The notes under the pieces were generated by a model. It was given only the letters and a program-made list of their open reading frames with translations, did not search any database and had not been told where the DNA came from. DNA of 64,000 nt, taken from Sistotremastrum niveocremeum HHB9708. Taxonomy: Eukaryota > Basidiomycota > Agaricomycetes > Sistotremastrales > Sistotremastraceae. Position numbers and translations under genes: made by a program. How positions within the stretch are numbered: the first letter of the stretch is position 1; the number at the start of each line of letters is the position of its first letter. Shown in pieces: positions 6,611 to 62,565 of this stretch. The stretch is from the NCBI GenBank assembly GCA_001630475.1, contig KV419406.1:1-64000 (forward strand), in the 5' to 3' direction.

Positions 6611-6636
6611 GGCGATCACCAAGCTCGTTGCAAGAC

Positions 6637-19826: not shown

Positions 19827-20086
19827 AAAATCGCGCGGGGCCTGGTGTCCTGCAAGCTTTCGGGCAATTTAGCACGCAGATATATTTCTCAAATGTGTAC
19901 TGCAACACGCTATATACAACTCATATAGCACGATTCTCCCGTTATACAGACTTTGAAGTAGTTTGAAATTATTACGGCACTGGTGCGGCAAACCGCGCAC
20001 CCGCTAAATTCTTCGAGGTCGCTAAATTTTCTTCCAAAGTACCTATATGCTTCGCATCCTGTCTCTTGCGACGCCGCGGTATAACC

Positions 20087-22837
20087 ATGTCCCATATACA
20101 TTTTGGAGACGCAGATAAGAAGCAGGGACCTCAGCTTCCACTCAACGGAACTGGGAAGAACAAGAATAGCAGGTCGTTGGCATCGCCTGGGCAATACTCG
20201 AACACGAACGGAGGCACTCCTCCTCGGAAAAAGTTCAAGAAGGACCACGCACGCAGTTCTCATAATGCCCAACCCAATGGAGTTGGTCCGCACAAGAAGG
20301 CCGTGAACGGTGTCCTAAAGCACAAATCGTCGCGTTCGTTCAACCAGGAACAGGACGGTGCATGGACGCCAATTCAAAAACAACGGAGAGAACTACCTAT
20401 ATGGGCTGGTAAGCGTCATGTTTAAGCTGTAGCCTAACGTGCCAATCATGTGTCCACAGGCAAGGATGCACTGATACAGCAAATCAGGGAGAACGATACG
20501 GTCGTGATACTTGGAGAAACAGGGAGCGGGAAAACTACTCGTAAGCCGTCCTTTGAACCTCTTCAGAATAAGGCTGATATATACCAAGAGGTCCCACAGT
20601 TTCTCCTAGAGGCAGGCTTCGCGAAGGATGCCATGATTGGTGTGACCCAAACTCGCCGTGTTGCTGCGACGTCCATCGCACAGCGTGTTGCTCTGGAACA
20701 GGATACCAAGGTGGGGGATCTTGTGGGCTACTCTGTACGGTTCGAGGAGGCATCTAGCTCGGACACAAAAATCAAATTCCTCACCGATGGCATGCTCGTT
20801 CGAGAATTGATGATGGACCCGCTTCTGTCCGGTTACAGTGTCATTATCGTTGACGAAGCTCATGAACGGACACTCCGGACGGACTTGTTGCTTTCACGGT
20901 TGAAAGATATACAAAGAATCCGCAACCAGAGTTCAGACAAGAAGGGCAAACGTCCAGCATCAGAAAACGGTCTACTCAAAGTTGTGATCATGAGTGCCAC
21001 CTTGGATGCGGAGAAATTCAGCGCGTATTTTAATGGGTGAGCAGCCGATGCTCCTGCCCTTCTCATAGAGCATACTGACGTACTTTCCAGAGCCAAGATT
21101 GTTTACGTCCAAGGCCGGCAGTATCCTGTCAAGATATATTATACCTCTGAACCTCAGCAGGATTTTCTTGAAGCGGGGCTCAAAACATTCTTCCAGCTTC
21201 ACAAGGAGAAGATGGAAGGAGATGTACTTATCTTCTTACCAGGTTTGTTTTGTCCCATTCTTTCTTCGCCGTCGTCTGACCACCTTCAAGGGCAGGAAGA
21301 TATTGAGAGCTTAGACAAGTCTATCAAAGAATATTCTTCTCAACTGCGAAAGCAAGACACTCGAGTATGTACCGCGTTCTGTCCTATGAATTAGTGAGCT
21401 AATGTCTCGACAGATATTTGTCTGTCCGTTATACGCCGCACTACCCATGTCCCAGCAGACCCAAGTGTTCGCTCCGACGCCTCCTGAAACACGCAAGTGT
21501 ATCCTTGCGACCAACATTGCTGAGACCGCCATCACGATACCTGGCATCAGATATGTCATCGACTCGGGTAAATATAAGGAGAAGATGTATTCCACGACGT
21601 TTAAAAGTGGTCAGTTGGTTTCCTACCCCTAGTAACCGTTCTAATATGTGTCGTCAGCTATGGAGGCCCTCATAACAAAGTCGATAAGCAAAGCGTCCGC
21701 GATGCAAAGGGCAGGTCGAGCCGGGCGAGAGGTGAGTATCCTGGTCCTGGCGGCTCGATTCGTCCTCCTACAACTGCGCTAGGGTCCCGGGACTTGTTTC
21801 CGATTGTATACGGAAGAAGGATTCCGATCGCTCAGAGAATCGTCTATACCGGAGATTCAGCGATCCAACCTAGCATCCAGCATCTTACAACTCAAGTATC
21901 TCAATCAAGATCCCGAGACTGTCGATTGGATGGACAGTCCGGGTCGAGATGCACGTTCGTATATTATTCCCTCCTTGTTCTATCCCACTCATTTTTGGAT
22001 AGTTGAGGCCGCATTAATAACCCTTTTTGCCATTCAAGCTATCGACAGGACACGAGCGTTGACGCCGCTCGGTCGACTGATGGCGTCTTTCCCCGTCGAG
22101 CCTTCACTCGCTCGTGCCATTCTCGCATCGAGCGAACAAAACTGCAGCAACGAAGTCGTGGACATCGTCGCTGTCCTCTCCACCACATCCACCATATTCT
22201 TCGACCCTTCCGAAGCCCGCGAGGACGCCTCAGAAGCTCGACGTAAATTCCGCCATCCTACCGGGGATCACATCATGCTCCTCAATCTCTTCCGTGCCTA
22301 TGAAGAAGTCTTTGGATCTTCCGGACGACACGGTGCTATCGATTGGTGTCGCAAGCATTACATCAACGAGCGTGCTTTGGCCGAGGCGGTACGGATACGG
22401 GATCAGATTAGGAGTTCGTGCGAGCGCGTGAATGTCAACTGGAAAACGAGCAGCGGATTAGAAGCTGAACCTATTCTCAAGAGCTTCTTGATGGGATCTC
22501 CGCAGAATGCTGCTCAGCTCCATCCTGACTTTGACTATCGGCAGTTGATTGGTTCATCTGTGGGTACTCGATCCTGTCACTTCAACCCCTTCTGATCTTG
22601 GCGTAGGTCGTGAAGATACATCCATCCTCTACACTTATAGATAAGAAGGTGCCGGTTATAATGTACAACGAACTAGTGAGTCTTTCATATCATGCATTGG
22701 TCCGTCATGCCGTGATCTGACCGATTGTCGATCTCTTGTAGATAATTACATCGAAGATCTACGCAAGATGCGTTTCCTCGATCACCCGCCAACTCATTAC
22801 GGAACTGCCTCTGTATAGCCAGGCGACCGCTGCATGA
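20087..22837 (+). CDS. DEAH-box RNA helicase, DHX33/Dhr2 type
   Basis: Eleven exons (20087-20408, 20460-20540, 20589-21036, 21091-21242, 21291-21364, 21414-21609, 21658-21731, 21783-21954, 22003-22559, 22607-22675, 22742-22837) are all in phase, giving 746 residues, near the 707 of human DHX33. Motifs in order: Walker A GETGSGKTT (about 126-134), TQTRRVAA, DEAH (about 223), SAT, FLPGQE, ATNIAETAITIPG and QRAGRAGR, then the winged-helix/ratchet region and an OB-fold tail ending in HPSSTLIDKKVPVIMYNEL. The pre-helicase RRELPIW and the tail match DHX33 better than Prp2/16/22/43. Expected in the nucleolus in pre-rRNA processing. The low-complexity N-terminus is basic. Two partial copies of its 3' end lie at 6.1-6.6 kb and 34.1-34.7 kb. 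Confidence 0.9.
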
Positions 22838-23310
22838 AGCGATGCCATTCACCTACTGTCCTCCTGTCATATATAATGCAATGGCTTCTAAGCAAGCACC
22901 TCAAAACTGAAAACGGAGTCAGCGCACTCGTCCTGTCAATGCGTCGAAGTTGAAAGTGAACTGGACATATCCTAATTTGAATGGAATAAGCACGTGACCA
23001 CAATTTTCTTGCGAACTGCCGTCATCGCGCGTTCCTCGTCGTAGCCAACGTCGTGCCTGCCGCCGACTTCGATCATTTCTAATTGCCATCGTCATCTGAA
23101 GATCACGATTCCCCACTGAAATCCAGTCTACCACGGTGAACTCGAATCTACAGTCACCTCCGACGATTTCTTTTCTCAGGCTGACGGCTCCCTCGCTCGC
23201 ACTCGATTCTTAGTCAAAACAAGCAATTGAATAAAACACGTATCGCAAGACGCAATCCCAGCCTAGCTGAGCCAGACTAGCCAGCCCTATCCTTGAATCG
23301 AATCCCGATA

Positions 23311-29009: not shown

Positions 29010-31720
29010 AGCTTCGCTATGTTCATGGAGCGACTTGATCACATGGAGAAGGAGCATGCTGGTCTGTGGAAACAACAAGTGTGGATGAAGCCAACAGACG
29101 TATCACTGCAGCACAAGGAGATGGTTCGAAGCTTTGAAGTCGTGGCTCAAGGAGGTCAGTACTAGCCGCCGATTGTGTAACTGCCTTTGATCCACTCTCA
29201 CGTCGCCTGCACCACCATCTTAGTCGTCCGATCTTGACGAGTTTTACGAGCGGGTCGTGCGATATGTCAGACCATTCACCGAGCTTGAATTCCTCGAGTT
29301 TCTCGACATGATCTGCTATAATTGGCCACACCTCCGCGAAAAAATTATCGGCGCTGATCAGCTGAAGAACAAAATCGAGGGCTTAGCACGGACTTAAAGG
29401 ACAGGATGAAGGAGTATTTTGAGGTAAGTGTGCGTGCTGGGTGGTCATCGGGTCTGTCTTTACTGAGGAACGGCTTTTCGTTAGCAAAGTGGCCATCGCT
29501 GCCGTTGCGTGGACTTCACCAGATCGTATCGCGTTCAAGTCAATGATCGGTCATTGGATCCGGATTCATGGGCATTGGAGGATAGTATGATTGAATTTGC
29601 TGGGCTACATGGGCCACACGAGGGGAGGAATCTGGGTGGAACATTCATGTCAGCTCTTGAGGATATGGGGCTCGTTGACAAGGTGCGCACCCATGTCTTG
29701 AATCCCATTCTTGCCCTGATCCCAAATCAACCAGTTTCCGACACTCACTGCCGATAACGGAAGCAATAATGGTACCTTGATGAAGATCATACGTCAACCC
29801 ACCCCCGTCTACAAAGAACGTATCCAGCGACTTAGGGAGGCAGGTAACCTATCTGACAACTTCATTTTTGGCACGGAACTCGACGAAGACGAAGACGAAC
29901 CAGTTGACCCCGACAAATTCACCATCTGATGCCGACCCCACGTCATCCACCTCGCTGTTGTCGACTTCCTCTCGACCATCAAAGTTATCTCAAAGGACGA
30001 CGTAGAGGCATCTGTCTTTGATGCCGAAACCTTGACTCACGAAGAAGCCGAGAAGCTCGTCTCGGGGTCTGCAGAAGAAGAACCAATCGTGACGCCGGCG
30101 GCGTCTGCCTCTCTGTCGGATATACGAGAATTACCCAACGCTGCAACGGTCATTACCAAGGTAAGGTTGCTTAATCTAGCGCTATCTGCAATCCTCACAA
30201 CCTGTATAAGATTTGTGATATCTTGAAGCTTGTGCCTTTGAGTCCTCAACGATACGAGCTGTTCAAGCCCGCACTGAAGAATTTGGAGGAGGGCCGCAAG
30301 TGCAAGGCAAAGGAGAAGGAGGAGGAGCGCAAGGCCCGCGCGTCGGGACTTATACTGGGCATTGTCACTCGATGGCACTCAACCATTTTGGTGATTGAAT
30401 GGGCGTTTTATTTACACGACGTGCGTTTCTTCTTACTCCTCATTTCAGTATTGATCTCTTCATCATTATGTTCAGGTTATTGATGCATTATGCAACGATC
30501 GCACCCCCCTCCCCCCCTCTTCTTTGCACAGTCTGAACTCGACAAGGCAGATTGGAATTTGGCGCAGGTACTTTGCGGATGGTCAAAGGTACGCACACCG
30601 TACCCATTCATGTTATCCGTAAATTAATTGAAACAGATGTTCCAATGCGCATCTACCTTCATGTCCACTACATCCAAGCCCACCCTCGGCTGCTCCATGG
30701 ACGCCTTTGTCTCGCTTGTAGACTTCCTCGACACCATCAGCAAATCACCGCCCGCTCTCGGCGATCCGTCCATTCTCGCTGGCATCACAGCCTGTCGAGA
30801 TAAATTCCTGAAATGGTGTGATCGCGCATCCGCTGAGACCGAGTACTACTATTTGCACCATGTGAGCCGTCTGTCTCCTTTGATATCTACCAAACCCCAA
30901 CTTTTCGGTTAGTGTTAGACCCAAATTTCAAGGATGCGCTTTTCAAGAACGGCAAGAATGAAGAGATTTCTGCAAGGAATGGGTACAAGGATGCCACGAG
31001 GCCTTTGTGAGGACGTACTATGCCGAGTACAGCACTGACACGCAGTCATGTCTTGAGGCCGACAACGTGCCAGAGGAGCTGGACGAATTCGAACATTTGA
31101 TGGAGTCAAGATTTGCTGTGGACGCACCGAGTATCGAGGTAGAGGACGATGAAATCAAGGCATATCTGCGTGAGGGTCGAGCAAGGAAGGTGAATCCACT
31201 GGCGTGGTGGAAGGAAAATCGTAGGACATTTCCGCGTCCCGCAAGGACGGCACGGGATTTTCTGGCCAATCCAGGTATGTGCCTTTGTCATGCATGGCCT
31301 ATTCTAATGCACATCTAGGCTCGTCTGTCAGTCTCGACCGCTGATTCAGCATCGGAAGAGACCTTGTTTCGCTGCAAAGGGCATCCCTCAGCGAAGCGAC
31401 GATCCGTGAAATGATGGTGACCAGGAGCATCATTCTCCTTCAAAAGCGGATGGGTCGGGCAGGAGAACGAGGAAGGAAGCGGAAGCGGGGTGATGAGTGA
31501 TCAAAACATTTTAATAGATGTAAATTATCGACATCAGTGCTCTACAAGATGTCTGCACAACCAACCCGCGGCCATCCGCGGTTCGAATCCGATCGGTTTG
31601 AATCAGGATTTCAAGTCACGGTCTTGAGCGGTTTTCCAACCGAAAGCAATCCGAACCATACTGTTTGGAGCTCCAACTGGAATGATGTGGAGCTTCAACT
31701 TTGGGGATTACAGAGGATGC
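29010..31720 (+). mobile_element. hAT DNA transposon copy 3, decayed
   Basis: Plus-strand pieces follow hAT transposase order: FYERVVRYVRPFTELEFLEF (about 29245), a QLKNKI segment, AVAWTSPDRVAF (about 29505; the DxWTSPN-type motif), the NSNNG and HVIHLAVVDFL region (about 29760-29970), LVPLSPQRYELF, TRWHSTILVIEWAF (about 30370), MFQCASTFMSTTSKPTL (about 30636), and a C-terminal dimerisation region with WWKENRRTFPRPARTA and LQRASLSEATIREMM (about 31200-31420). Several stops and frame changes make it non-coding as a whole. The 3' end (about 31556-31680) carries the same CGGTTT-rich terminal sequence as copies 1 and 2. Short introns are preserved. The N-terminal BED finger was not found. Confidence 0.85.
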
Positions 31721-34109: not shown

Positions 34110-34665
34110 AGCATCAGAGGGACCCACTGACACAATGCATGAATCAAATTGAAAGGGGGTTTAATTGGTGATCTATGGTCTGTCAAGTACAGAGTTGTAT
34201 TCGGGACGTTCTGGGAAAACCTACAGCATCTTCCTCCGACAAGCACAGACATTCTGCGGCATACGTATGCGACTGGGGCGCTCACCACACTTCTGCGTGA
34301 CAGCTAGCGTGACGGCCATGGGCACAAGACTCCCTTGCTTTGCCAGAGGCAGTTCCGTAACTCCAGGTTCGGGCTGTGTATGCATCCGTTGGAGACCGTA
34401 TGCCTGACCGAGATAAGAAAGGGGGGGTGAAGGACAGACGCATCTTGCGTCAATGTTCATACTAGTCATCCACGTCGATCCACGACGAAGAACGAAAATC
34501 GGTCAGACCATGGCACAACAAATCGCAGCATGAGAGGCGACGCTCACCAGTTCATTGTACATTATGGCCGGGACTTTCTGGTTGAGAAGTGTAGAGGATG
34601 GATGTGCCTTCATCCCCCACGCAGCGTTTAGAGCGAGGCGCAGTGAGAGAATCGTGTACTCACAG
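34110..34665 (-). pseudogene. Copied 3' end of the DHX33-type helicase gene, fragment 2
   Basis: Minus strand; matches fragment 1 (6145-6610) and, more distantly, 22550-22860. It covers the intron before the HPSS exon, the exon encoding HPSSTLLNQKVPAIMYNEL, the next intron and a diverged last exon (INIDARCVCPSP). Its intron sequence is closer to fragment 1 than to the native gene, so both copies derive from one intermediate. Homology fades near 34200. On the minus strand it directly follows the SCC2 fragment. Confidence 0.75.
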
Positions 34666-34669
34666 ATGA

Positions 34670-35245
34670 GCCATTTGACACGCTCGACGCTCGGTGGGGC
34701 CAGCCAATTGCTCCTCTTGACTTTCCAGTTGATGATCCAAAACAAAGCTTGATTCACGTGAGCCAGTCGGCCCCTGGATTTGATTCAGTGCTTTTCTTGC
34801 CAGCAGTGGTTTGTGATTCCACCAAGGAAGAAAGGTCGGAGAACGGCGTATACCGCGTGTATGACGAAAGTCCGACACCGAGGCAGAAACCTGTGTACCA
34901 AAGAGTTTGCCGACCTGAGTGATGACGCTGCAGGCGACGGTGATGAGATCGAACTTCAGCGGCGGACCAAGTCAATGCAGACGTTTGACTTAGTGATGAT
35001 CTCGCATGGAAAGAGGAGAATGATTGCACAGAGAAGTAGATGGCACGCGTTGGTGCAGTTTCCGTTGGCGACGCACAGGTTGTTGGGAGCTCTCCGGGCT
35101 CAAGCTGAAATATCATCAGCACAGGAAATCTCGGCATAAGCCACACCTGTGTTTCAAAGCCAGAAGCTCCTCCTTGAGGACTATTGCAAGACGCTCATGT
35201 TCTCCTCCGCCGAGAGTTCTCGTGGATGTGACAACATCTCCCAGG
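34670..35245 (-). pseudogene. SCC2 fragment (two pieces of the gene at 43.5-44.6 kb)
   Basis: Bases 34679-34760 match 43557-43615, and 34775-35240 match 44035-44560, in the same orientation; the roughly 420 bases between are absent. Diverged by substitutions and small indels, with frames broken. Junctions: after the CCCCACCGAGCG sequence it meets the helicase tail, and at about 35245-35265 it meets the intron of the dehydrogenase copy. Confidence 0.8.
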
Positions 35246-36870
35246 GCTCAGCTTATCAGGGTGATTGGCGAACCTTTCTCCTGAGTCGAATATGATGGTC
35301 ATTTCTGAAGAGACGATGAGTTCAGTTACGACTGTGAAAGCGAAGAAACTCCTTATCACGCACAGCTTTCGCGATCTCGGGAAGAACGTCAAGACTTCCT
35401 ACTGCCCCGTCTACTTGTCGCCCGGCATGGTTTGTGACCTACTCAGGATTAACATTCGACCTTAATCAAAGAACAAAGATGAACATACCACTATACCGTC
35501 GCAACCAACTTCATGTTCTTTGATCGCATCCTCAACGCTTTGGATACCTTTGAGCACGAATGGTCTTCCGCCTGAAACTTCTTTCCACTAAGAATCCCGA
35601 AGTCAGCTTCCCGCAACCTTCGTATCAATTGAAGGATGATGTCACCTTTTGAATGAGCCATTTAACTTTATCCCAGGTATGCGCTTTCCCATGCCATACA
35701 TGTGAGTCGATCCATTTGCCTTTTTCTTTCTTCAGATCTTCGCCGTATTTCTTCATGAAGACTGGGTCGCTTTCGCCAATCTCGTTCGAGGCTACAACAT
35801 GGCTCGTAAATATTGTCATCAGTGAGAGAAGATGTTGCTTACGGCTCCCTTGTAATAAAACCTGATGTGCCAGTTGAGCAGTCGTCAAAGAAGCGCATAC
35901 ATGACTTACGTATAATTAGCAATGCTGATGTCTGTAGGTCTCCAACCGAGCTGCCACGTATCGGTCGTGAGCATCAAGACATCGAAGACCACTTCTCCAC
36001 GCGCGATGAAGAAGGCTCAACGTCTTTGAAAATATCAATCTATGTATGCACATATAGAGGGGACGCTAGACTTACAATTGCATCATCATGGCCCATATAG
36101 AGTTGATAGAATCGAGGGCTCTGCGCCTCGCCACCGTTCGGTCCATCATAAGACCAGACTTCGTTAGACTTGTTACGAGAAGCCGCCCCTTCATCATTTC
36201 CTCTTGCAACTGCTTCGATCGGCTGAGAGCGAGCGGTGGAGAGGCAATACTGTTCCGTAGCTTCAGTGTGGGTTGACCGATAGGACCAGTAGGACTAGTA
36301 GGCTACTCACAGGCAAACCAAGCTCTCCTGCGATTTTCGCAGGGACGAGCTCTCCGAGGGGAGTGTAAAGCTTGTTGATGGCAATGGGAGCGAACATGAT
36401 GGGAGCGGGGATTTTGTGACCAAAGATGTTCGCTGTCTTGACCGTTAGTGCTTATGTTCCCAGTTGAACGGTATGGAAAGACGTACTCGTCAAGTCATGG
36501 GTATTGGTGTCAATAAGCATTCAAGGCACGATCTTCCACCGATAAAACGCCTCCCTACAAGCCAACGTCAGTCGCAACGCATAGCTATATATGTGGACTG
36601 AAAGACCTGTTGGCTCGGTCGGTCCATCCCATGCCAGCGTTCGAACTGGCGCACAGATATCCTCGGTCAGACAACTTCTTCTTTGCGCTATCCTCGAGTT
36701 CCTCAGGATGAATAGAGAAGGTAGGCACTGACTGGGATGAGCGAAAGCATGGCAAGATAATCGGAAGCCTCACGTTGACCAGTAGCGCCTCCATAACGGA
36801 AGACTTGTCTTTGATAGAGCGAATAGTGAGGGGAGGGCCCTTTGGGTTTGTTGGTAGGATCCATGAGCAG
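35246..36870 (-). pseudogene. FMN-dependent 2-hydroxyacid dehydrogenase copy, 3'-truncated
   Basis: Minus strand. Recognisable exons: GPSPHYSLYQRQVF (about 36840), FSIHPEELEDSAKKKLSDRG (about 36700), WKIVP-stop-MLIDTN (about 36530), NIFGHKIPAPIMFAPIAI (about 36420), YCLSTARSQPIEAVARGN (about 36240), SPRFYQLYMGHDDAI, NEIGESDPVFMKKYGEDL (about 35790), WHGKAHTWDKVKWLI, then TNHAGRQVDGAVGSLDVLPEIAKAV (about 35420-35350). This is the lactate 2-monooxygenase/cytochrome-b2 family; the FMN-site NHAGRQVDG is present. An in-frame TGA replaces the Arg codon usual after IVP. The gene stops in the intron after IIFDSG, where SCC2 sequence takes over, so the last part (RTGADVFKALALGA onward, including the Arg/Gly phosphate-binding segment) is missing. 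Intact 3' counterpart: 63446-64000. Confidence 0.8.
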
Positions 36871-37118
36871 AGTATAGAGCATCGCGGAGGAGCGCACTTG
36901 TTTCTTATGCCGTTTCCTGGATGCGACGGCTGTATGAGGAGTTCCATCGCAATGACGTCGTGGACGTGGATGAGGAGCTTTGGCGGATGCGATCACTCTC
37001 TTCCGCGGTCTGCCGTCTTCCGCTCATCGCACCCGGCATTGCCGTAAGAGAGTATGCATAGGATCCGGCAGAAGAAATAGATGTCCTAAAGCAAGGCTGT
37101 GAAATGTAACATTCGGCG

Positions 37119-37808
37119 TTTATGCTCTCGGAAATGATACGAGGACGCCAAACACGACAGCTACGAGTACCACCAATGCACTCGAAAGGAATACGACTGT
37201 TGCGCGTGCGGGAGAGAATTGTCCCTTCGTCAATGCATTCTGCACGTCGAAGAATCTCCATATACCTACAAAATATTTAGCTCGACGGGTGGATAGCCGT
37301 GAAAAGAGCACTCCCCAATAGCCAAGACTATGAGACCGAGGAGAACAATAGATGATCCGAGTGGTCGAGCGAAGCGTTGGATGTTCAAGTGAACGGGACC
37401 CGAGGGATTATTGTGCATCGAAATCGTAAACAACTGAACCAATGCTGTGATATTCACTCAGCAGTCGATTAACCAAGGGACGAGCAAAAATAACTCACCA
37501 ACTCCAGCAGATGCTATAGCCAGACTGGTCCGAATATAAGCCAACCATGTTCGTTCGGAAGCAAGGTGATCTCGGGCCACCGAACCAGAATTCTCCAACG
37601 TCAAGGATATCCAAGAGAGATAACGAGGGAGTCTTATTGATTCCCATGGTTTGGCTTTTGACTCTCGGCGAGCTGGCGAACTCGAAGAGGCCTGTGCCTC
37701 GGGCATGATGAGCGGGAGCTGCGAGTCGGTCGACGGTCGTGAAACCACCAGAGCAGGCACAGCTTTCGACGCTACAGAAGCTGTAGCAGACTCGTTATTG
37801 ATGCTCAT
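37119..37808 (-). pseudogene. DUF202 membrane protein, duplicate copy with damaged splice donor
   Basis: Near-identical inverted copy of the gene at 62566-63254: ATG at 37808, disordered Ser/Ala-rich N-terminus, then SVARDHLASERTWLAYIRTSLAIASAGV, the DUF202 core with its first membrane helix, followed by two more helices (SSIVLLGLIVLAIG and VVFLSSALVVLVAVVFGVLV). The second intron's donor reads GG instead of GT (GCTATTG|GGGAGT; GCTATCG|GTGAGT in the other copy), so normal splicing is doubtful. Coding substitutions are few. DUF202 proteins resemble the membrane part of vacuolar transporter chaperones; function unknown. Called a likely pseudogene, but use of another donor is possible. Confidence 0.65.
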
Positions 37809-38074
37809 AGTTCAAGATGAAAGAACGAAACTAACCTGATACGTAATTGACGATGCTTTTCGTGTACTAGGAAAACGCAATCTCGCTGCCAAGAGGCGTC
37901 ATGAAAGAAACCCAAAACAGGCAAAGGCACCGGTTCCTTCGCCTCGGCGCGGGAGACTCAAACAGCTGATAGTGCTTTCCTTGGAGTCGAACTAAGAAAA
38001 TTTATTGGCGAATTATGTTGCACAGTGATGACTAGCTATTATTTGCAAACAGTGTTTGTTCGATAGACATACAA

Positions 38075-38740
38075 AATACACCTATGTACAGAAGCGATGG
38101 GAATACACTAGCGATGGGCCTGCCGTCGACACTACTTTGCCGCGGCGTGCTCGTCGGAGACGAAACGTTGATGGCACGAAGCTGAGGATTGACTCAGTCG
38201 GCAGAGAGCCTGCGAAGAGCTAGACAGATGGATCAACAACAGCAGCATGGGCACGCGGCGCGCACTCACCAGGAGAATGGGCCCGAGGGCAACAAGGGGA
38301 GAGAGGCCGGGAGCTTACCATGTCGTTGCTGGCAGTCTTGACTGTTCGACGAGATCCCTGAGGCCGCCGCCGACCCCACCACGAAGGACCCAGCGCTCCT
38401 ACAAACTGGACCCCCACGCCACACGCGCGATGTAACGTGGGAGCTGGTGATCACTCGATCTGGCGTCCAGTAGGTGCCACGACTTGCTCCAGCAAGCCGC
38501 GGCGGGCGCGCACAGGACAGCGGATGCCATCCTGTGTGGGGAGTGGGGACCGAGGCACCAGCAGGCTTCCAGGGCGGAGGCTTCACCACTGGGCATGGAG
38601 AGGGGAGAGGGGAGAGGACAAGAGGTGTCGGCTCTTTCCGACCAGGCTTCGCGCTCCCCGATCCCAGAGGCCAAGCACAACCAAACAGCCAAACAGGAGC
38701 ACACATCGACGCCAAACAGTCCCAAATACGGACCCACGCC
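38075..38740 (-). repeat. Repeat R, copy 2
   Basis: Inverted relative to copies 1, 3 and 4. Virtually identical to copy 3 (47230-47801) and very close to copy 4. As in copy 4, it lies about 260 bases upstream of the DUF202 start, with conserved intervening DNA. Confidence 0.85.
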
Positions 38741-39213
38741 GCCCGGTTGTGTGTAGCCTTCAACAACCTTCGAATTCCGAGGGCAGGCCAGACGAAAACA
38801 TCAAATTGATCGACCGCTCGAGAGAAGCGGCCAGCTTGTCTGTCAGGTTGGGTATTCCGAGTGTCTGCTTTTTGGCGAGCATGGCAGGTTCATTCGGCGA
38901 CCTTGACCGAGAGATTACCAGTGATAGATGAGGCGAGGTGCAGCCTGTCTTAGAGCAGCCAAAATCGACAGTAGCTTGATGTCACAAATAGTCGATTCGA
39001 AAACTCGGCCAGGAATACATTTTCCAGAGTATACCGGAGAGTTTTGCTGGTCACATGTAGGGTGCTATCCAAGTACGGTTGACAGTCATACTTCACAGCG
39101 GCGCATTCTTGACCAAGGGGGAGGTAATGTCGCGTTGCAGGGATGGGCAATACGCAAGAACTAGCTTCGCGCGTCCAGTCTTGCACGAACGCGGCCCATC
39201 GAGCTTTAAGAAC
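38176..39213 (+). repeat. Left arm of 1.04 kb inverted repeat around SCC2
   Basis: Reverse complement of 46762-47801. Encoded frames of 164 and 78 codons are identical in both arms, and I found about one mismatch near the outer edge. The arm consists of part of repeat R (outer) plus a 440-base segment (inner, 38770-39213) found nowhere else in the window. Confidence 0.9.
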
Positions 39214-39316
39214 TAATAGGCTTATCCCTCAACGCGCTACGCTTGTTTGGAACCCATTTCAAGCATTTACTGAAGATACGCATGAGCATGTAGCATAGAC
39301 CGGATGGGAAATGTAA

Positions 39317-42300
39317 CTACTCCTCTGGTAGGCCGTACAGGATCTTCAAATGCGCCTTGAGAATTAGGACGATACCAACGAGGATAGAGGCTTTGGCCAT
39401 AGCGATGTCGAGAGAGGAGGTCGAGGATTGTGCGGAGGAATGAATAGTGGCGGCAGCATTATTTTCTTGAATTATAGGAGATTCGGTGGGGTTTGGACCA
39501 GCGGGTACAGTGGATGGCTAAGTTTTGGAGATGACTCATTAGAATGACCACGGTTTGAGCAACACTCACTTGACTCGACGAGAAAAGGTTTGCGACTGGA
39601 ACTTATGTATCATATATTTGGGTACCTGCTACGGAGAGCACCGAAGTAAGATGGCGGATCACGGTCAGGACTACTTCCAGTGTTTTGTAGTCTAACGCAG
39701 CGACGTTTTCCGCCATATATCGAGCAAAATCAATGTCGTCCTGATGATCGCATGATTCAGCTCGGGCATATAAGTCAGAATACTATGGAGCAGACCTGAG
39801 AAGCCTCGACAAGTGGAAACACGATGTCGAACGATCGGACAATAGCCTTCAAGAAATCTTGGCGAGAAGATCGCTTTTCACGAACGAGAGAATACCATGG
39901 GTGAAGCAGTGCGGTGACCTCAGGAGCGCAGCGATACCCTGTAAAAAGGCATAAGCGGCGACTTGGACCCCAGATTGAAGCTAACCTTGCACTATATTCT
40001 TGCACATCTTCCGTTGATACTGGTAGGACGCGCGGCAAGACTCGGGGAAACGGGTATTAATTAGGGTTGCATGCTTGCCATGCAAGAGAGAGTGGAGTGA
40101 TATGGCTCTATTTGACAGCACTGAATTGTCGCTACTCTCAAGTGCGATGATCACAGGCATGCACTAGACGGAGTGGGATGAATGACAGTCGAGCAAGCGA
40201 GAGAAACGAGCGACAAACCTGAAGAGGATGTGCAAGTCCTTGTTTCACGATGAATCCCATAATCTCAAAAGCTGGAGCTTGGATCGACGGGTGAACCGAT
40301 AACGCAGATTCCAATATCTGCGAGATGTAGCGCTGCATGATTGCAGAGCTCACCCTGGATATCCGTCAATGAGAGCGATGAAGTTGAGACAGTGAATTGA
40401 CACACCCTGAATCGGCGAAGTCATTCGAGCTACCGATGCGCTCTCCCATGTTGACTTCCCCAGATGCAGCTTTCTTCTTCGCTCCTGAAGCTACGGATAA
40501 CGTGAGATCGACCGTCCGATGCAACCTCAGGCTGCAATACCTTTTTCATGAGCTACATGTTTTGCAGATTCTGCAACGAGGAATGCTTGGATGATCTTGA
40601 GCAGTTGACTTTGCGATTCGACGTCGGAGGAGTGAAAGACGCCATCCATGATGACCGACGACTCGTCCAGAGTCATCAAGTTGGGGTACCCCTTGAACAG
40701 GAATCCTGGCAGCGACTTTAGTTCCACAGCTTGCTGAGCAGACGTCACATACCAAGGCATTGCAGCAATCCCTTTCTCATCGTCGACTCACGAAGCTTCT
40801 TGTACAGCATGACCAGGATATTGTACACGTGCTGAGCAATCGATGTCTGCGGGCGTCTTCAGTGACAGTCCTGATGGCTTCATGAGATATCATACCGAAG
40901 TTATTTGATTCAACTCCGAGGCGTACGCTAGTGAGTAATCTGGATGAGGGAAGCACGGGTGTGACCAGCGAAGCAGCTCACTTTGGTTTCCCTCTCGAAG
41001 CTTGTCGAAATCACAATGCTCGCAGAGCAACGACGTAATGGAGATGACCATGTACAAGACTCGAGACGTCGCAGGCACCTTCATTTCCTCAGCAGTCAAC
41101 TTCACGATTCCCCTCAGACGACCTATAGTCTATCAGACATCAATGATATCACCAGCAAAACTCAATCACCTAAACATGACTTGAGCAACCCCACGAGGCT
41201 TTTGTAGTCGTGCGACAGATATTGAATGGTGGCGCAATAGCATGCCACTGCTTCTCGGAGGCCCTGCGTTTAAGCAGCGGAATGATCAAGAAGGTATCGC
41301 TGCTGAACGTACTCCAAATCCTCCCGCTGCCGACGGTTTGAGAACCATAGGTTGCAAAGCTTGTTGGAGATCGGCAGCAAATTTAGTCGCCGTCCGAGGC
41401 ACCCTTGGGATGTAGACACGGAATATCTTCAGCAAGTAGTCCGCCAGAATGATCTCCTCGCTCTACACATCGTTAGCGGGAACTCCGTGCGCCATTAGAT
41501 GCTACATACGGTGGAGGCATTCTTCAAATAAGGAATGAGCGTGGTGGCTTTGCTTCCAGAGATGATTGCCGGATATGCAGAGGAGAATACATATATGGTC
41601 TTGATGCTTGCCACAATGTTCTTCGAAGCCGTTAGTATAATTTCAATGATTTGCCTAGGGTCACTGCACCTGTCCCGCAGATTCATTGGCATCGACCAGA
41701 CTATCGGTGAGGAAGTCACAAATTTCGGTGTACTGCTTCTGAATCACAACAGGCTCCTTGCCGTCTTTCTCGGTAATGATCTTGTGTAGGAGATCTTCAA
41801 GAGTGGGCCGATCTTGAAACTCTCCAATCATCTTGACAATGACAGAAACCTTGGCAGCGAGACGACTCTTGGTATCAAAGCCATACTCAGCCGTGCGCGA
41901 ATTTCGAGCTTCGAGATTTTCAGCGGTGCTGGTAAACCACAGTTCCTCGATCGTCTTAATCGCCAAGTCCTGATTATTTGGTTCAGTAGCTGAGCGACAC
42001 AATATGCCTTAATCGAACCTTCACGTTATCATCTTCATCGTGTATGCGCATCGTAAGACGAGTAATCACATCTACGCGACGATCCACATCCTGTGTGATT
42101 TCATAGAAGGTTTTCAACAGTCGAACAACCCGCTTTCGGACGCTGAGACCAGTGTCCTAGAGAGCCGATGAGCAGGAGCACGAGAGCGGGAAGTGGACTT
42201 GACTAACGGCGATGCGATCAGCGATTCTAGCATAGTAGTCGTCTGCCAGCTCAGGGATCTGCTGCACATACTTCCCGATCAATTCAACGGCTGCGTCGCG

Positions 42301-45300
42301 TACTTGAGGCGAATTGTCGAGGAGATGTTGCTCGATTGCAGTCCGTACTTTCGACTAGTCTTAAGCTCAGCAAATGCCAGATGGTGCAGAGAGGAGAGCA
42401 GTGCGCTTACATTGCGGAATATTTGAGGATCACTTGTGACGATCTGACCAAGCGCCCGTAAGGCTTTGGTACGCATTGTAACAGCGCTGGCGTCCGATGC
42501 CACAATGACGACACTCAAAGCCGGGTCAGCAATACTTTTGATATTCTGCCAAACGCCAAGGTGTTCTGCGAGACGATCTATATGAGAGACCTCTCGAAGA
42601 GAATTCCTGAACGCGGTCTGAGTTGAGAGAGCAAGCAACACAATGGAACTATTCACGCCTCAAATACGTCGGCTGAGCTCTCTTTCCAAACACTCTGGAG
42701 CGCCATCTTCAAAGTTCGTACAAGTTCCGGGTTGTTTCTCGGACGCCTCCCCTCATCCTCGTCTTCGTCATGCGACTGATAAACCTTGAGAGCGGAAGCT
42801 AAGCGCTGACCCCACTGCACTGCCGTCAATTCTCGGGCGGTCTGCAGCATATGAGTCGTAAAAGTCCTCCTCGGCAGCGCAACCATCACAAACCTCGTAG
42901 ATCTGATCCTCGGAAGTTCTTTTCGTTAAGTAAAGAATGATTTCCTGGTGCTCGTGGGCGAACAGCTTGAGTGATTCAATGTTTCCTTCGGACAAAACCT
43001 ACGCCACTGTTATCAAACACTCGTCAACGTAGGAACACCGGCCATACCTCATCCCATGTCTTGGTAATGGGGGACAATGGGGGCGCGCTCGATTCCTGAC
43101 TTGCTTGTTTGGCTTTCACAAGTGACGAACGAAGCTTGGCAGTAATGACCCCCAGGTGATCAAGAGCCAGAGACTTCAAAGTGTTGGCATCTGCGGTAGC
43201 TTTATTATCATCGAGGCATGAAATCTGGACTTCCGTCAGAAATTTAAGAATACCGCCACGGTATGATGACTTGCCATGAAACGTGCAATCAGATTGAGAA
43301 CCAAACTCGCGGCAGGCCATTCTGGCCAGTGTAAGACAACCAGCAAGTCAGAGATGAGATTGTCCAAAATGATCCGGTATTCTGCGTCGTTTGATGACTT
43401 GGTAGCCTTCCCTTTTCCAGATCTGCGGTTCTCGCTTGAGCCGAGCAGTGGTGCTGTAGACCTTCGTCCGACCGTTTGGTTAAGAACGTAATCATGGTGC
43501 GCGCAGCTTTAGTAGTTGGTTCCAAACCGGTGGTATACAGCTGGAGTTCTTGGTAATCACGCTCGGTGGGGCCAGGCGGTTGCTCCTCTTGACTGTCTGG
43601 TTGATGATTCAAGACGAAACTCTGTTCGCGTTCGCTGGCTAGTCTCTGGAGTTGAACTCGGACATCGTGGGCGGATGTCTGCACTAGCTGTAATAGGAGG
43701 GCTGAGACCGTATGTATCGAGTACCCGTTTCCAAGTCTACGCGAAGTCAGCACCGCAGACTCTGAATAAACCTGAAATCATTATTCACTTGAACTGCCCG
43801 GCCATTTGTTTGACGTCCGGCAGGCGGATGAGAGAGGTCAGAATCTCTTCGATGATCCAGGAGCGCTGCTCTTCGTGGGACGCAAAGATCTAACAGTCTC
43901 GTGCTAAGCGTCACATTCTATGAGATTTGAGGGACGTACATTCCAAATAAGCACCAAAGCTTCTAGACGCAAGCCTTTCATAGAAGTTTTTCGGCTGGCT
44001 GCCTCGTCCGGAGTAGAAAATGCAACTTTGCCTGACTTGGATTTGGCGCTCTTCTTGCTAGCAGTGTTTTGTGATTCCATCACGAAGAAAGGGCCAATAG
44101 CGACGTATACCGTCTGAATCACAATAGAGTCTGACATCGAGACAGAAACATCTGCACCAAAAAGTTTGTTGATCCTAGTGATGACGCTGCAGGCGACGGT
44201 GAACAGCTCGTCGATCGTTCCTCGAATAGATTGAATTTCCGAGGCGGAAGATGTTAACACAGACGTTAGGATGGGGGCTGTTCCGTATGCAGGGAAGAGA
44301 ATGATTCCACAAAAGGGTAGATGACATGCGTCAGTGCAGTTTTCGTCGTCGACAGACAGGAAATTATGAGCTCTTCGGAATAAAGCTGAAGTATTGTCAG
44401 CAGAGTCAAACCTCGAAGGCATGGGACGCACCTGTTTTTGGAGATTGTCACTCGTCAAGAGCGCAATACAGCATTCCGAAGCCAGAAGCGCCTCCTTAAG
44501 GACCTCTAGATCGACGCTCATGCGATCGATCTCCTCCGCCGAGACTTCTTGTGCGGCAGGGACAACATCTTCTGAGGGAGCACCTTCAACCGGAGACGAA
44601 CGAGCATTGTTTCCTGGTTTCGAACCTTGCTTCCCTTGCGCATTGGCCGCAGCTTGACCGGATGGGTCCAAACCTTCTCCAGCCTTCACACTTCTCTCCA
44701 AAATCTTCATGACTCGGGATAGGATGCCGAACTCCAAATCACCGGTTCCACCGCTTCCCACAGGAAGAGGTGTGGGACCAGACCTCATCTTCTTCCTTGA
44801 TCGGGCAATCTTTGACACCAGTTTCTCGAGCTTTGCCATTGTCACGACGCTCAAACGGGCTTTGGTCCAGTCGTCAGTTAGTTTCGAAAAGAAGTCGCTT
44901 TCGTGAGATCCGGAAGAGGGGCCTATGGAGTCTTCGGCCTCGAATATGTCTTCTAATAATGTACTGAGTTTCTCTAAATGACCTAGATTCATGTTGAGCG
45001 GTCGAAGAACAAGCAAAGCGTCAGAGAACCTACTTCGATCATCACGGCGCCCAGTCGAGCTCTTCGAGCTGAAACCCAGCTGCGGTGTCTCTACGGATCC
45101 GTAGCCTCCCAAATTACTGTCTGGAGCGCGACCGGAGCGAGATGTGGTGGGCGTTTTGAACAACGATCGTAGACTAGGGAGTTCAACACAGAGCATTGTT
45201 GGACTCTGCTTTGCGGAATTCGATGTGCTCGAGGTAGCAGCGGTGCTCGCGTCTGTGGAGAGGTATTTGGCGTATGGGATGCAGGCCGCTTGATGGGAGT

Positions 45301-45784
45301 AGTTTGCAGGGTTCTGTCTCAGACCGCAACAAAGGCTCGGGACGGGAAGACGGTGGCCCCATGGGTGTATACGGGGTGTGGATGCTTTCTTGGGGGTTAC
45401 TCTGCACGCTTTTGATCGGCTCTGAGTATGATGAAGCCATCGGAGAAAAAGGCAGATTTTGTTTTTGGCGGGATATGGCCTGCAGTGGTGGGAGAGAGAA
45501 CACCAGGGACGGAGACGAAAGGGGCTTGGTACTCTGTCGCGGGGGGAAAGGGGGGGGAGGAAACGAATCACGAATGAGTGTTCTCCATGGTTTGTTCCGC
45601 GTCGACACTGAAGAGGCTTTATTCCTGCAGGTCGACGCCGTAAATGTGAGCGGCTTACCCTGCATCCTCTGCTGTAGATTGAGCGCCTTCGTGCGCTGAC
45701 TCTGCCACCAATTCACCTGTCTCGGGCCCTCTGGGACATGCGACGAAGTCAGAGCCTCATCGCGTCGTCGTACTTGGATCCTAG
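39317..45784 (-). CDS. SCC2: Cohesin-loading factor Scc2/Mis4/NIPBL
   Basis: Large minus-strand gene with many short introns. The C-terminal HEAT region is diagnostic: [13 protein letters not shown] and [12 protein letters not shown] (about 40330-40225) match the IMQLYLKQVLEA and NQGLIHPVQ segments of NIPBL. Others are [37 protein letters not shown] (about 43740) and [12 protein letters not shown] (about 41930). The N-terminal third is Ser/Pro-rich. Scc2 with Scc4 loads cohesin on chromatin. The 5' end is unresolved: an exon begins by about 45784 ([15 protein letters not shown]) and upstream exons may exist. The stop at 39317 follows LYGLPEE, where I would expect about 50 further residues, so the C-terminus may be clipped. 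Both gene ends lie close to inverted-repeat arms. Confidence 0.85.
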
Positions 45785-45789
45785 TGAGG

Positions 45790-46761
45790 GAGAGAAATCA
45801 TGCGAGAGGGCCGGAGTCTCGGTGATGCATGTCAAGTCTCCACGATGTCTGGAAACTAGGGCCGTGTGTCAAAACCTGGTTCACCGATCGCGTGATTGAC
45901 CAGACGCAGAGGAGCAAAGGTTTGAACGCCGATGCGATTCGTTCACGATGGAGCGAGGAGGATGCGATTGATCATGAGAGCCTTCAGACGGTCCCGGTGC
46001 TATGCCCTGAAATATCCATCGCTGTCCTGCCATGGATATCACAGTTCCGCGAAGGGCTCACGTTTGAGATTCCAGGTGGCGAGGTGGACGTGGAGTTTCG
46101 CAAGGTGGAGTCGCTCCTGCAACATAGCGAAGTTCAAAATCAACGCGGAGCACGTTTATGACTGAAATGGCCTGACCTTTCCAGCTAAGCCTAGATATGA
46201 GCGAGCTAACGACAGTAAGAGCGCTGTCCTGAGCTCCCAGGAGGTACTCTAGACATAGCGAGACTCGTGACGCGTCAAGTCTTGAAGCAGCTCCAACAGT
46301 TGGACGAAGTTCCTACAACAGCCGGACATCGGCCACATCTCGAGATTACCTTGTCTTCAGTGCACTGACCGGATTTCGGTAGCGTACATCCGTCGGCATC
46401 GCCAGGGGACACCTTCTCGGCATTCATCGGCACCGTTTCCGAGTTCGACTCACGCCTCATCCTTTCTCGAACATGACCAGATGTATTATCTCAACTCTTG
46501 CTTTCTTGTGAATCTTGTCTCTGGGAACCTTCAAATCGACTCAAACATGCATACGCTCAACACATTTGCGCCAGTACAGCAGCGTTGACTTCACTCTCCT
46601 CTAGGAGACGGCAAGATACAATGACGCAGCCGTAAATCAACGTTGTCAAGATCTCTCTTTTGAAGCATATGGCTGTCATCTGTGCCCGAATATGGCACCT
46701 GTTTTCACCATTTACTGCTCGGATACATGTAAAGGCAAAACAATTCTCGCCCTCGACTATA
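45790..46761. other. SCC2 upstream region; no separate gene recognised
   Basis: Probably contains the SCC2 promoter and first exon(s). A plus-strand frame of 110 codons at 45829-46161 has no recognisable features and overlaps the likely SCC2 5' end. Confidence 0.4.
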
Positions 46762-47801
46762 AGTTCTTAAAGCTCGATGGGCCGCGTTCGTGCAAGACTG
46801 GACGCGCGAAGCTAGTTCTTGCGTATTGCCCATCCCTGCAACGCGACATTACCTCCCCCTTGGTCAAGAATGCGCCGCTGTGAAGTATGACTGTCAACCG
46901 TACTTGGATAGCACCCTACATGTGACCAGCAAAACTCTCCGGTATACTCTGGAAAATGTATTCCTGGCCGAGTTTTCGAATCGACTATTTGTGACATCAA
47001 GCTACTGTCGATTTTGGCTGCTCTAAGACAGGCTGCACCTCGCCTCATCTATCACTGGTAATCTCTCGGTCAAGGTCGCCGAATGAACCTGCCATGCTCG
47101 CCAAAAAGCAGACACTCGGAATACCCAACCTGACAGACAAGCTGGCCGCTTCTCTCGAGCGGTCGATCAATTTGATGTTTTCGTCTGGCCTGCCCTCGGA
47201 ATTCGAAGGTTGTTGAAGGCTACACACAACCGGGCGGCGTGGGTCCGTATTTGGGACTGTTTGGCGTCGATGTGTGCTCCTGTTTGGCTGTTTGGTTGTG
47301 CTTGGCCTCTGGGATCGGGGAGCGCGAAGCCTGGTCGGAAAGAGCCGACACCTCTTGTCCTCTCCCCTCTCCCCTCTCCATGCCCAGTGGTGAAGCCTCC
47401 GCCCTGGAAGCCTGCTGGTGCCTCGGTCCCCACTCCCCACACAGGATGGCATCCGCTGTCCTGTGCGCGCCCGCCGCGGCTTGCTGGAGCAAGTCGTGGC
47501 ACCTACTGGACGCCAGATCGAGTGATCACCAGCTCCCACGTTACATCGCGCGTGTGGCGTGGGGGTCCAGTTTGTAGGAGCGCTGGGTCCTTCGTGGTGG
47601 GGTCGGCGGCGGCCTCAGGGATCTCGTCGAACAGTCAAGACTGCCAGCAACGACATGGTAAGCTCCCGGCCTCTCTCCCCTTGTTGCCCTCGGGCCCATT
47701 CTCCTGGTGAGTGCGCGCCGCGTGCCCATGCTGCTGTTGTTGATCCATCTGTCTAGCTCTTCGCAGGCTCTCTGCCGACTGAGTCCATCCTCAGCTTCGT
47801 G
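46762..47801 (-). repeat. Right arm of 1.04 kb inverted repeat around SCC2
   Basis: Mirror of 38176-39213. The outer end stops at AGCTTCGTG (47801), after which copy-specific DNA begins, so repeat R is cut short here. Confidence 0.9.
47230..47801 (+). repeat. Repeat R, copy 3 (3' truncated)
   Basis: Part of the right inverted-repeat arm. It lacks the last roughly 120 bases present in copies 1, 2 and 4. Confidence 0.85.
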
Positions 47802-52199: not shown

Positions 52200-52734
52200 C
52201 CGCTGCCGCATGCATCGACCGGAATCCAGCTTTCGTTTCAGAAATCTATTCAAAACACCATTTTCCCCTTCTCTCAACTCGCCGACTTTTAAATCATTAC
52301 ATTCGTCCTCCCAATTAAGTTGCACTACATTTTCGAATCAAGAACCACGTCCTCCATCCTCGGCATCAACATCACAGGCCGTCCTCGTCTATTGTTCAGC
52401 TCTCAAGATCAGTGTTTCAAGATCAGGGCCTACGGCATCAAGACGAGGCCGATCATGTAAACTCGACTCTGTCGAGATGGGCTGCATTTTGGACGGTTCT
52501 TCTAGGCCGTATCTGTCTCAATACCATGTCGAACCGCTCACGGATCTCGTATGCACTCATGTAGACCGTGGGCCGGGTCAAAGCTCTCTTTTCACTGGTT
52601 ATTCTGAATTTTAAAATAGAGCTCCGAACGGTTCGGTTCGGATCGTTTTCGGTTGGAAGACTGCTCAAAACCGTGACTTGAATTCTTGATTTGAACCGAT
52701 CGGATTTGAACCGCGGCTATCCGCAGCTAACCGC
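52200..52734. repeat. Duplicated block at 3' side of hAT copy 2 (partner at 1-535)
   Basis: Roughly 98% identical to the block at the window start, with differences clustered at about 52500-52620. It covers the CGGTTCGG-rich hAT end and about 415 bases beyond. Confidence 0.85.
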
Positions 52735-55060
52735 GGTTTACAATAGCACACCTCTTGTGGACGAAATCACAGTAGTTTAAGTATGAAATACTAAACATAA
52801 CTATGTTCTCTTTCGTTTGATTCCCCTCCGTTTAGGTTCTGCTGGCTCCAACCGCTTTTGAAGCATCAAGGTGCTGCGCAATATCATCAGCTCACGGATT
52901 GTCGTTTCGCTGAGCGAGGCTCGACGAAGGGAAATCAGATCGCGACCTGCGTTGAACGAACGTTCAACGCTCACAGAAGACCCTAGGACGAAGTTAGTTG
53001 ACTTTGTCAAAGCTAAAAGGATGAATGACTCACCTGGAATTGCAAGGTAATCTCGAGCCATTCTTGCAAGCCTGGGGAATCTGCTATGATTTGCACTCCA
53101 CCACTTCTGCGGATCTGTCTTCGGACCTCTTCCCTCACGCAGGTAGGTCTTGATTTCTTCATCCGACGTCGTCGGTTCGACCGCGGGAAACCTTGCGTTA
53201 CATCGTCGCTCCCAATCGTCCGCTTCGTTAGCTACTGAGTTCGTCCGGGCATCAGGGTCTTCAGTGCTATTCTTGTCGGCATACTCAAGATTGAAAGTCT
53301 TGACAAATGACTTGTGGCACACGGACCCAGTCTTCACAGAATACTTCTTCGTTCTGCTCATTTCGAAGAAGGATATCCTTATAGCTTGGATCGAGAACTA
53401 AGTCGGGGGGAAGTGAACGGCTCTGATCTGTAGATAACAAGAAATACGACGCACCGGTTGCAAAATAATAATATTCTGTCTCTCTTGATGCCCGATCGAA
53501 CCACTTGAGTAATTTGTCTTTGCATGCTTCGATACCAGCGCGGACAGAGGGGTTGCTAGAGGCGGTGGGGGATCGCTTGATTTCGTCTACAAAGTCGAGG
53601 ACGACAAAGGAATTCATGGACGAGCTCAGTGTAGGACGAGAGCTCGCCGCCATGTTGAGCGAAGCACGCTGAAACATCTGAGACATGTTAGCAAGGTGCG
53701 CACAGCAGACCTGATTTGATACGAACGCACCTTGAGCCACCCACAGAGAGTCTCCGCCAGCTTCCACTCATCTTTCGACAGGCGATACGGCGCAAAGTAC
53801 GGATGACCTTCGCTTTTGCAGAGGTCGTCAATAACCTGAAGGCGATGATATATAAGCCACTTGTGAAACGGAATCAATCGGAATACTTACCTCTTTGAAC
53901 TCCAGCCCACGCTCCATCATCATCATCATTGAGTGTCAGCGAGTTACGACATCGAGTATCAACCCTTTGACGCGAGGTTGATACTCTTGCTTCTGTTCAG
54001 CAGCTCTCCGTTGTCGACCTTCATCGAGTCGCTTGACAGCAGCTTTGAATACCTCAGAGCGCTGAGGCGAAGACCGCACCAGTTTAGCAATGTTGCGAAT
54101 CTGGACATGTTTGAACGAAGAGGGTTTATGATGAGCTGAATTGCTGACCTTGGTGATGACAGCGTGAGGTTGAGGCGGTTCCTTTTGACCTGGCGCAGAA
54201 GCCGCCGCTGGAGCAATCGGTTCGGGAGCACTGTCATCGGGGGATGGTAAGTTGGCTTCGGCCTCTTCGACAGTCATAGGGTGTGGTTCGAATGCAGAAG
54301 CCGCTACATCTTCTTTGCTGATGGCTTTGATGAATGTTAGGAAGTCGAGGACGGCGAGGTGAATGATGTGGGGAAGGCAGCGCATAGTGAACTTTTCGGG
54401 ATCGAGTTCGTCGTTTTCCATATCTGAGTCCTCGTAATCGGCGGGTATCGTACCAGCCTCCTTCATGCGACGAATACGGTTCTTGTACACAGGGAGGAGT
54501 TGTCGAGCAATCTCCTTCGTCTGTGTGCCGTGGTTGCTTGTGTTATCGGCAGTAAGAGTTAAAAACTATTGATGTGATCAGTATACACTGTACAGCGCCC
54601 GCATTGACTCTGGATTAGCTACGCACCTTGTCCACCAAACCAATTTCTCGTAATGCATCCATGAACGTATGGCCTAAGTTCTCGCCGTCGTGTGTCGCCG
54701 TCGTGTGCCCCATGCAATCCAGCAAAGTCGACCACGCATTCCTCCAGCGCCCAACTCCCAATTCTTAGTGATCCACTGCCCAACAATCGGAATGAACGCG
54801 ATACGGTTGGGCGACGTCCATGCATGCCCTGCGAATGCGACCTTGCCCACATCATCACTTTATTGGATCGGTCGGTCAGACGGGAACAAAGAAGTGAGAC
54901 AACAGCCAAACTCACCTCAAAGTATCCCTTCAACCAGCTATTCACGTCCTTTCCGACTTGCATGATCTTGTTCCTCAATTGATCGACGAGTTGTATCTTC
55001 GATCCAATGAAGACCTCAAGATGGCCTCAATCGCAACAACGAGTATCCAAGGCCTTGCCT
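52615..55060 (-). mobile_element. hAT DNA transposon copy 2, transposase body
   Basis: The best preserved copy on the minus strand: AGHAWTSPNRIAFIPIVGQW (about 54830), VDFAGLHGAHDG, the MRCLPHIIHLAVLDFL block (about 54385-54330), IRNIAKLVRSSPQRSEVFKAA (about 54100), the LSKDEWKLAETLCGWLKV exon (about 53790), MFQRASLNM (about 53680), and a dimerisation region with WWSANHSRFPRLARMARDY, SVSVERSFNAGRDLISLRRASLS and LMILRS (about 53095-52870), ending at 52801. Exons have short introns. It differs clearly from copies 1 and 3 in protein sequence. The N-terminal BED-finger part is not adjacent; a candidate lies about 3.1 kb upstream (58150-58970). Confidence 0.85.
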
Positions 55061-62310: not shown

Positions 62311-62565
62311 TCGAACAAACACTGTTTGCAAATAATAGGTAGTCACCACTGTGCAACATAATTCGCCAATAAATTTTATTAGTTCGACTCCAAGGAAAGC
62401 ACTATCAGCCGTTTGAGTCTCCCGCGCCGAGGCGAAGGAACCGGTGCCTTTGCCCGTTTTGGGTTTCTTTCATGACGCCTCTTGGCAGCGAGATTGCGTT
62501 TTCCTAGTACACGAAAAGCATCGTCAATTACGTATCTGGTTAGTTTCATTCATTCATCTTGAACT

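Follow-up and report, generated by a model that had tools for sequence, protein, structure and literature searches.

We analyzed the first 64,000 bases (the window) of contig KV419406.1, here called C13 (880,741 bases), from the 34.7-Mb, 111-contig genome assembly of Sistotremastrum niveocremeum HHB9708. We found that a mosaic of gene pieces lying beside a repeat, R, at 34.4-38.7 kb is probably what erosion has left of an old duplication of the local neighbourhood, one that held R, a DUF202 gene, a flavin mononucleotide (FMN)-dependent dehydrogenase gene, SCC2 and a DEAH-box helicase gene. In minus-strand order (38.7 to 34.4 kb), the mosaic consists of R, a complete DUF202 gene, the dehydrogenase, pieces of SCC2 (SCC2') and the 3' end of the helicase (hel'). 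From left to right on the plus strand the blocks are hel' (34425-34678), SCC2' (34687-35239), the dehydrogenase (35250-37032) and DUF202 with R (37044-38742), and the sense of all of them is minus. Raw identities to the counterparts were 72, 70, 86 and 94%, respectively, and the matches were far above chance (E 5e-90 for hel' in its match to 6179-6422, E 9e-48 for SCC2' and E 0 for the other two). These alignments bore out the position and single orientation that an initial annotation, made from the letters alone, had given the mosaic, including the SCC2 match at 34.67-35.24 kb on which that description leaned. The source genes do lie in the same neighbourhood, as had been proposed, but the dehydrogenase counterpart is not wholly inside the window, the match reaching C13:65539. 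Four pieces share an orientation by chance in 1 of 8 cases, and the common direction is weak evidence by itself. Three junctions were read in the sequence as assembled: J1 (34679-34686), between hel' and SCC2', with 8 unaligned bases between the BLAST alignments; J2 (35240-35249), between SCC2' and the dehydrogenase and within dehydrogenase intron 11, with 10; and J3 (37033-37043), between the upstream flank of the dehydrogenase and the 3' flank of DUF202, outside both coding regions, with 11. By eye the shared bases at J1-J3 were few at most, an estimate limited by the diverged alignments. All comparisons were made inside this one genome; the self-comparison covered C13 1-124000 and parts of contigs C45 and C69, the genome-wide DNA searches scored best candidates only, and gene models and codon phases are our own readings of the sequence.

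Dating the unselected sites and measuring selection allow what looked like serial transposon capture to be explained by one old duplication. An age gradient along the mosaic, as its raw identities might suggest, was gone at unselected sites, where the Jukes-Cantor distances of the four pieces to their counterparts were 0.29-0.38 (standard errors 0.04-0.07 where computed), one age within error. The pieces differ in their history of selection: DUF202 and the dehydrogenase were under purifying selection for most of the divergence time, while SCC2' and hel' drifted as dead sequence. The dehydrogenase paralogue (35250-37032, minus strand) comprises 167 bp of upstream flank and exons 1-11 without the 3' end, and is 85.6% identical to C13:63770-65539 (E 0), the one other genomic place found for 35240-37044 among the matches listed. 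The window holds only part of this counterpart (63449-64000, minus strand), whose modelled ATG lies beyond it at about C13:65372; its frames match Pfam FMN_dh, and our model divides the modelled part into 11 exons; its introns have GT-AG ends and are short, and those of the DUF202 model are short too. The coding sequence of the mosaic copy is broken by a nonsense codon (exon 3) and by single-base indels (exons 6 and 8). Between the two copies 125 of 506 intron sites differ (Jukes-Cantor 0.300), and the mismatches at codon positions 1, 2 and 3 are 15/357, 11/357 and 77/355. Third positions thus behave like introns (Fisher P 0.33), whereas first and second positions do not (P 1e-28). On both branches together the first and second positions changed at 26 of 714 sites, compared with about 88 expected on a neutral mosaic branch alone (P 3e-16), the expectation being for a copy dead since the split with a branch of half the intron difference. 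This deficit indicates that the copy was a working gene during most of its existence, and its 3' end was probably a late loss. A stretch of 101 bp (35665-35765, minus strand) has no difference from the counterpart and is likely a conversion tract.

DUF202 copy B (37120-37808, minus strand) has three exons encoding 194 aa. Its counterpart, copy E (62566-63254, 194 aa), lies with its own R copy in 61614-63328 on the plus strand. Translated with the exon boundaries of copy E, copy B gave 194 aa with 3 replacements, and as judged from this reading it is a complete, conserved gene that has hardly decayed, not a fragment. Its intron-2 donor reads GG (37315-37314) where copy E has GT. The 94% identity of the alignment at 37044-38696 (E 0) is the mean of two different parts: R with exon 1 is near-identical, and from about 37507 the sequences differ by 6-26% per 50 bp. 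The near-identical part (37491-38696, minus strand, 0-4 mismatches per 50 bp) is likely a conversion tract; exon 1 differs at 4 of 310 sites and divergence jumps at the start of intron 1. Outside it the age of the other pieces reappears, with 31 of 104-105 intron sites (Jukes-Cantor 0.375 +- 0.073) and 19 of 80 sites in the 3' flank (0.286 +- 0.070) differing. Mismatches in exons 2 and 3 fall at 3/91, 2/92 and 23/92 sites of codon positions 1, 2 and 3. The alignments of DUF202 and the dehydrogenase also retain the introns, in agreement with the earlier claim that copying was at the DNA level.

The other two pieces look dead, judging by how their mismatches are distributed. SCC2' is made of three pieces on the minus strand (34687-34749, 34773-35154 and 35157-35239; 84, 70 and 76% identity), between which 409 bp and 39 bp of SCC2 copy A have no counterpart. 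In the longest piece the mismatches at the three codon positions are 32/31/35, the neutral pattern, and the Jukes-Cantor distances are 0.351 +- 0.064 (35/125) at third positions and 0.300 +- 0.040 (63/255) at first and second positions. The search with SCC2' gave six matches among those listed, at two SCC2 copies: copy A (39219-46068, minus strand) and copy B (C13:78691-85682), which are 88% identical. Copy A had been named as the source, at 44 kb, and it does match, but SCC2' is about equally distant from the second long copy. For hel' (34425-34678, minus strand) the gene at 22.6 kb had been proposed as the source; its nearest relative is instead a second dead fragment at 6.2 kb, with 87% identity to 6179-6422 (plus strand), against 72% to 22550-22734 in the helicase gene. 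For hel' two matches were among those listed in the genome-wide DNA search. The gene (about 19500-22950, plus strand) matches Pfam DEAD, HA2_N and HA2_C, and its distance from hel' is 0.344 +- 0.052 (51/185). The second fragment (6153-6568, plus strand) aligns to the helicase at 6153-6477 and 6517-6568. Mismatches in hel' are about even over the codon positions in every frame tried, and the codon-position test of SCC2' and hel' gave no sign of a working period in either.

We infer from these results that a local gene neighbourhood was duplicated long ago, that most of its SCC2 and helicase sequence was then lost, and that deletion and end-joining, rather than capture by a mobile element, made neighbours of the surviving pieces. 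The 3' end of the dehydrogenase would have been removed late, R with DUF202 exon 1 and the 101-bp dehydrogenase stretch would have been converted recently, and the shared orientation would reflect ancestral order or chance. The kind of deletion required is seen inside SCC2', which supports this reading, as do other local duplications in C13 1-124 kb and a further SCC2 fragment of about the same age (C13:66702-67550). Several observations weigh against it. At the second locus DUF202 lies on the plus strand and the dehydrogenase on the minus strand, tail to tail, and the locus is not collinear with the mosaic; the mosaic order is unreachable from it by one inversion, and duplication alone leaves the order of the pieces unexplained. 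Only 0.096 separates the two hel' fragments, a smaller distance than they have to the helicase gene, so that at least one of them was copied after its death. Just ahead of the dehydrogenase ATG, 14 of 167 sites differ, less than in the introns, and the DUF202 third positions (23/92) likewise differ less than the introns. Conversion blurs some of the distance pairs, whose standard errors of 0.04-0.07 are to be kept in mind.

The best surviving alternative, although an unlikely one, is that the four pieces were joined all at once in a single round of replication template switching, by a process like fork stalling and template switching (FoSTeS), microhomology-mediated break-induced replication (MMBIR) or microhomology/microsatellite-induced replication (MMIR). 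The single unselected-site age of all pieces and the joins with little or no homology would fit such an event. In yeast, MMIR makes segmental duplications through microhomology joins, and the joins reported are of 5-10 bp or at microsatellites (PMC2518615), compared with a few shared bases at most here. Segmental duplications with pseudogene fragments, and those made by MMIR in yeast (PMC2518615), resemble the mosaic in being local, in involving several genes, in joining with little homology and in creating new gene neighbours; the mosaic differs in the fewer shared bases at its joins and in a dating and selection record by which the dehydrogenase had served as a gene for a long time when it was truncated. 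This record speaks against a one-step origin: a dehydrogenase without its 3' end that was long under purifying selection should make J2 younger than the duplication, and the two hel' copies are far closer mutually than to the gene. Template switching had been offered in the initial annotation, and it stands as a possible source of the joins; as a one-step origin it fits the common age but not a dehydrogenase cut from birth.

Capture of host gene fragments by a Pack-type element, for example one driven by hAT, or by a Helitron was the other origin suggested there, and we consider it improbable. Pack-TYPE and Pack-hAT elements join several host gene fragments. The mosaic is alike in its joined gene fragments and differs in that no framing inverted repeats were found and in that one piece is a whole gene. 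The window does contain related transposon remnants (1-2350, 29740-31673 and 52200-54403, 65-84% identical), with a frame at 52.8-53.4 kb that matches the hAT dimerisation domain. In 33.4-39.4 kb there was no framing inverted repeat, the 2 inverted pairs listed both lying within the mosaic, and matches between the flanks (32.9-34.7 versus 37.0-39.6 kb) were of 11 bp or less. Helitrons exist in the genome, which gave 15 Helitron_like_N matches, one of them on C13 at 289.6 kb; none is in the window, in line with the earlier remark that no Helitron helicase is present at the site. A scan of both strands of 33.0-39.6 kb for a Helitron 3' end (hairpin, CTRR, then T) found none, an absence that says little given a mean of 0.13 in 200 shuffles and a required perfect 6-bp stem, which is stricter than the HelSearch rule and may miss ends. 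Six flank stretches of three Helitrons, the termini of which are provisional, matched nothing in C13:1-124000. In Pleurotus, Helitrons carry captured genes, and HELPO1 resembles the mosaic in gathering host gene sequence in one place (PMC4289320); the mosaic differs in that it lacks a RepHel and that the scan gave no Helitron 3' end. Serial capture is further at odds with the one unselected-site age of the four pieces, with DUF202 being a whole conserved gene, and with the long purifying selection on the dehydrogenase, which is unlike a truncated captured fragment.

An explanation of similarly low probability is that the pieces are recent copies whose donors were either unsampled functional paralogues or the other nuclear haplotype, with a divergence older than the joins. 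This would account for a dehydrogenase that is truncated yet marked by selection, and many mushroom-forming fungi are dikaryotic. It demands several unsampled donors of equal age, however, and only one other place was found for 35240-37044 among the matches listed. An assembly artefact at R is very improbable: long-range order near R could be wrong, two R copies differing at only 2 of 1,045 positions and contig C69 starting in R-like sequence, but J1-J3 sit in sequence that is several to 30% different from its other copies, and assemblers do not make diverged copies.

Of the two subjects, the repeat R is a better lead than the mosaic beside it. The whole repeat measures about 0.7-1 kb, of which 253 bp form a core. 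Copy B, the one at the mosaic, spans 38051-38742 (minus strand) in the part common with copy A and 38175-39219 in the part common with copy D. Copy A (6611-7343, plus strand) adjoins the second hel' fragment, copy D (46757-47801, plus strand) is inverted and accounts for the 2 differences in 1,045 just mentioned, and copy E is the one next to the second DUF202 gene. A search with 37044-38742 listed, besides itself, three other R places on C13 (one with DUF202), one short match on C13, three on C45 and one on C69. Three C13 copies share the core (38348-38600, minus strand) without a difference, and the fourth does so over 252 bases, the identity being as rounded by the tool; the three C45 copies are 85-90% identical to the core and their flanks align poorly. 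In copies B, D and E the near-identity extends well past the core, so that the identity of their cores needs no special cause and recency or conversion may suffice. Between copies A and B the differences per 50 bases are 1-2 upstream of the core, 0 within it and 4-11 downstream. R is of interest as a candidate fungal RNA family located at duplicated segments, with a core that is constant while the downstream part of copy A and the C45 copies diverge. On C45 there are three R-like units (C45:1417-2342, 7532-8456 and 13193-13636) spaced by about 6 kb. The 77-kb contig C69 starts within R-like sequence (C69:1-741), so the assembly may break at R. The inverted arms at 38175-39219 and 46757-47801 bracket SCC2 copy A, and the arm end at 39219 is also where the homology of SCC2 copy B starts.

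R may be an RNA, as modelled from an alignment of its copies. On the minus strand the fold had a z-score of -1.84, with 9 of 200 shuffles as good, compared with 0.09 (106 of 200) on the plus strand. The consensus fold had 88 pairs, 6 of them altered on both sides. Covariation was suggestive and mixed: the proportion of paired cells (98.2% of 439), the covariation score (0.134) and the number of double-changed cells (11) were each matched by 0 of 500 shuffles, whereas the 6 double-changed pairs were reached in 58 of 500 and the 17 further pair types in 476 of 500. Columns slid by 1-3 gave 0-3 double-changed pairs. These figures come from 5 rows, two of them nearly identical, and from a fold derived from the same rows. 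All 5 aligned rows have GTAAG right after the core. At the gathering threshold Rfam gave no match in the window, and at 38050-38950 there were two matches only (E 2.8 and 3.9). No Rfam match supported R as a 7SK-like or other known RNA, and the sole candidate for signal recognition particle (SRP) RNA lies elsewhere (C1:209287-209550) with 51.4 bits, below the cut-off of 65. A coding exon was also rejected, for copy B has a frame open for 207 aa that, as read in the alignment, a TAG interrupts in each of the three C45 copies. Exact R patterns of 26 and 27 bases had 0 matches in the viral_contigs and genome_contigs sets, which are without fungal genomes and give this result little weight. Nothing resembling R turned up in a literature search or in passages of PMC5640933, which is no proof of its absence from print.

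We infer that R is a conserved, possibly structured RNA gene at several duplications, and not a transposon end. A bolder proposal, which we hold to be unlikely, is that R is a functional gene for a so far undescribed RNA, structured and spliced; selection and conversion would keep its core constant, and it would seed local duplications as a miniature fungal core duplicon, with mosaics of neighbouring genes arising next to its copies. LCR16a and other primate core duplicons are alike in having one repeated unit at several duplicated segments of different genes, with mosaics (PMC7419210); LCR16a is 20 kb, whereas R is about 0.25-1 kb with four copies found on C13, and a role of R in driving the events is conjecture.

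The long copies A and B, which we take to be SCC2 from our own reading of the sequence, have codon-position mismatches of 12/12/53 over 44440-45200. The two are closer to each other than the mosaic pieces are to their counterparts, with third-position distances of 0.245 and 0.166 in two stretches and 58 of 860 differing sites in a third. Pfam gave no family for three frames of copy A; two frames of copy B had sub-threshold matches, one to PDS5 (E 0.057) and one to Cohesin_HEAT (E 0.072). A further SCC2 fragment lies at C13:66702-67550, right of the second dehydrogenase, with a Jukes-Cantor distance of 0.306 over all sites (207/823). An insert at C13:67604-68213, with 142-bp inverted ends that are 94% identical and resemble those of a miniature inverted-repeat transposable element, splits an SCC2 pseudogene fragment. 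Just left of copy B, C13:76715-78112 holds a 584-bp inverted repeat (97.8%) with a spacer of 230 bp.

A mating-type locus was considered for the window and rejected: the 25 matches to STE3 pheromone receptors, a good many of which are single exons, lie at C13:527-626 kb and on C35, none in the window. Together with the short introns and the Helitrons, these receptor matches are in keeping with a basidiomycete. Elsewhere in the window, 4193-4759 has a weak match to a Tet_JBP oxygenase domain, below the cut-off, and 16234-16905 has an HRDC domain and the weakly matching end of a 3'-5' exonuclease, perhaps belonging to an RRP6-like gene. Self-comparison of C13 1-124 kb detected other local duplications as well, and C13:105784-108460 and 120975-122915 form one such pair, 75-83% identical.

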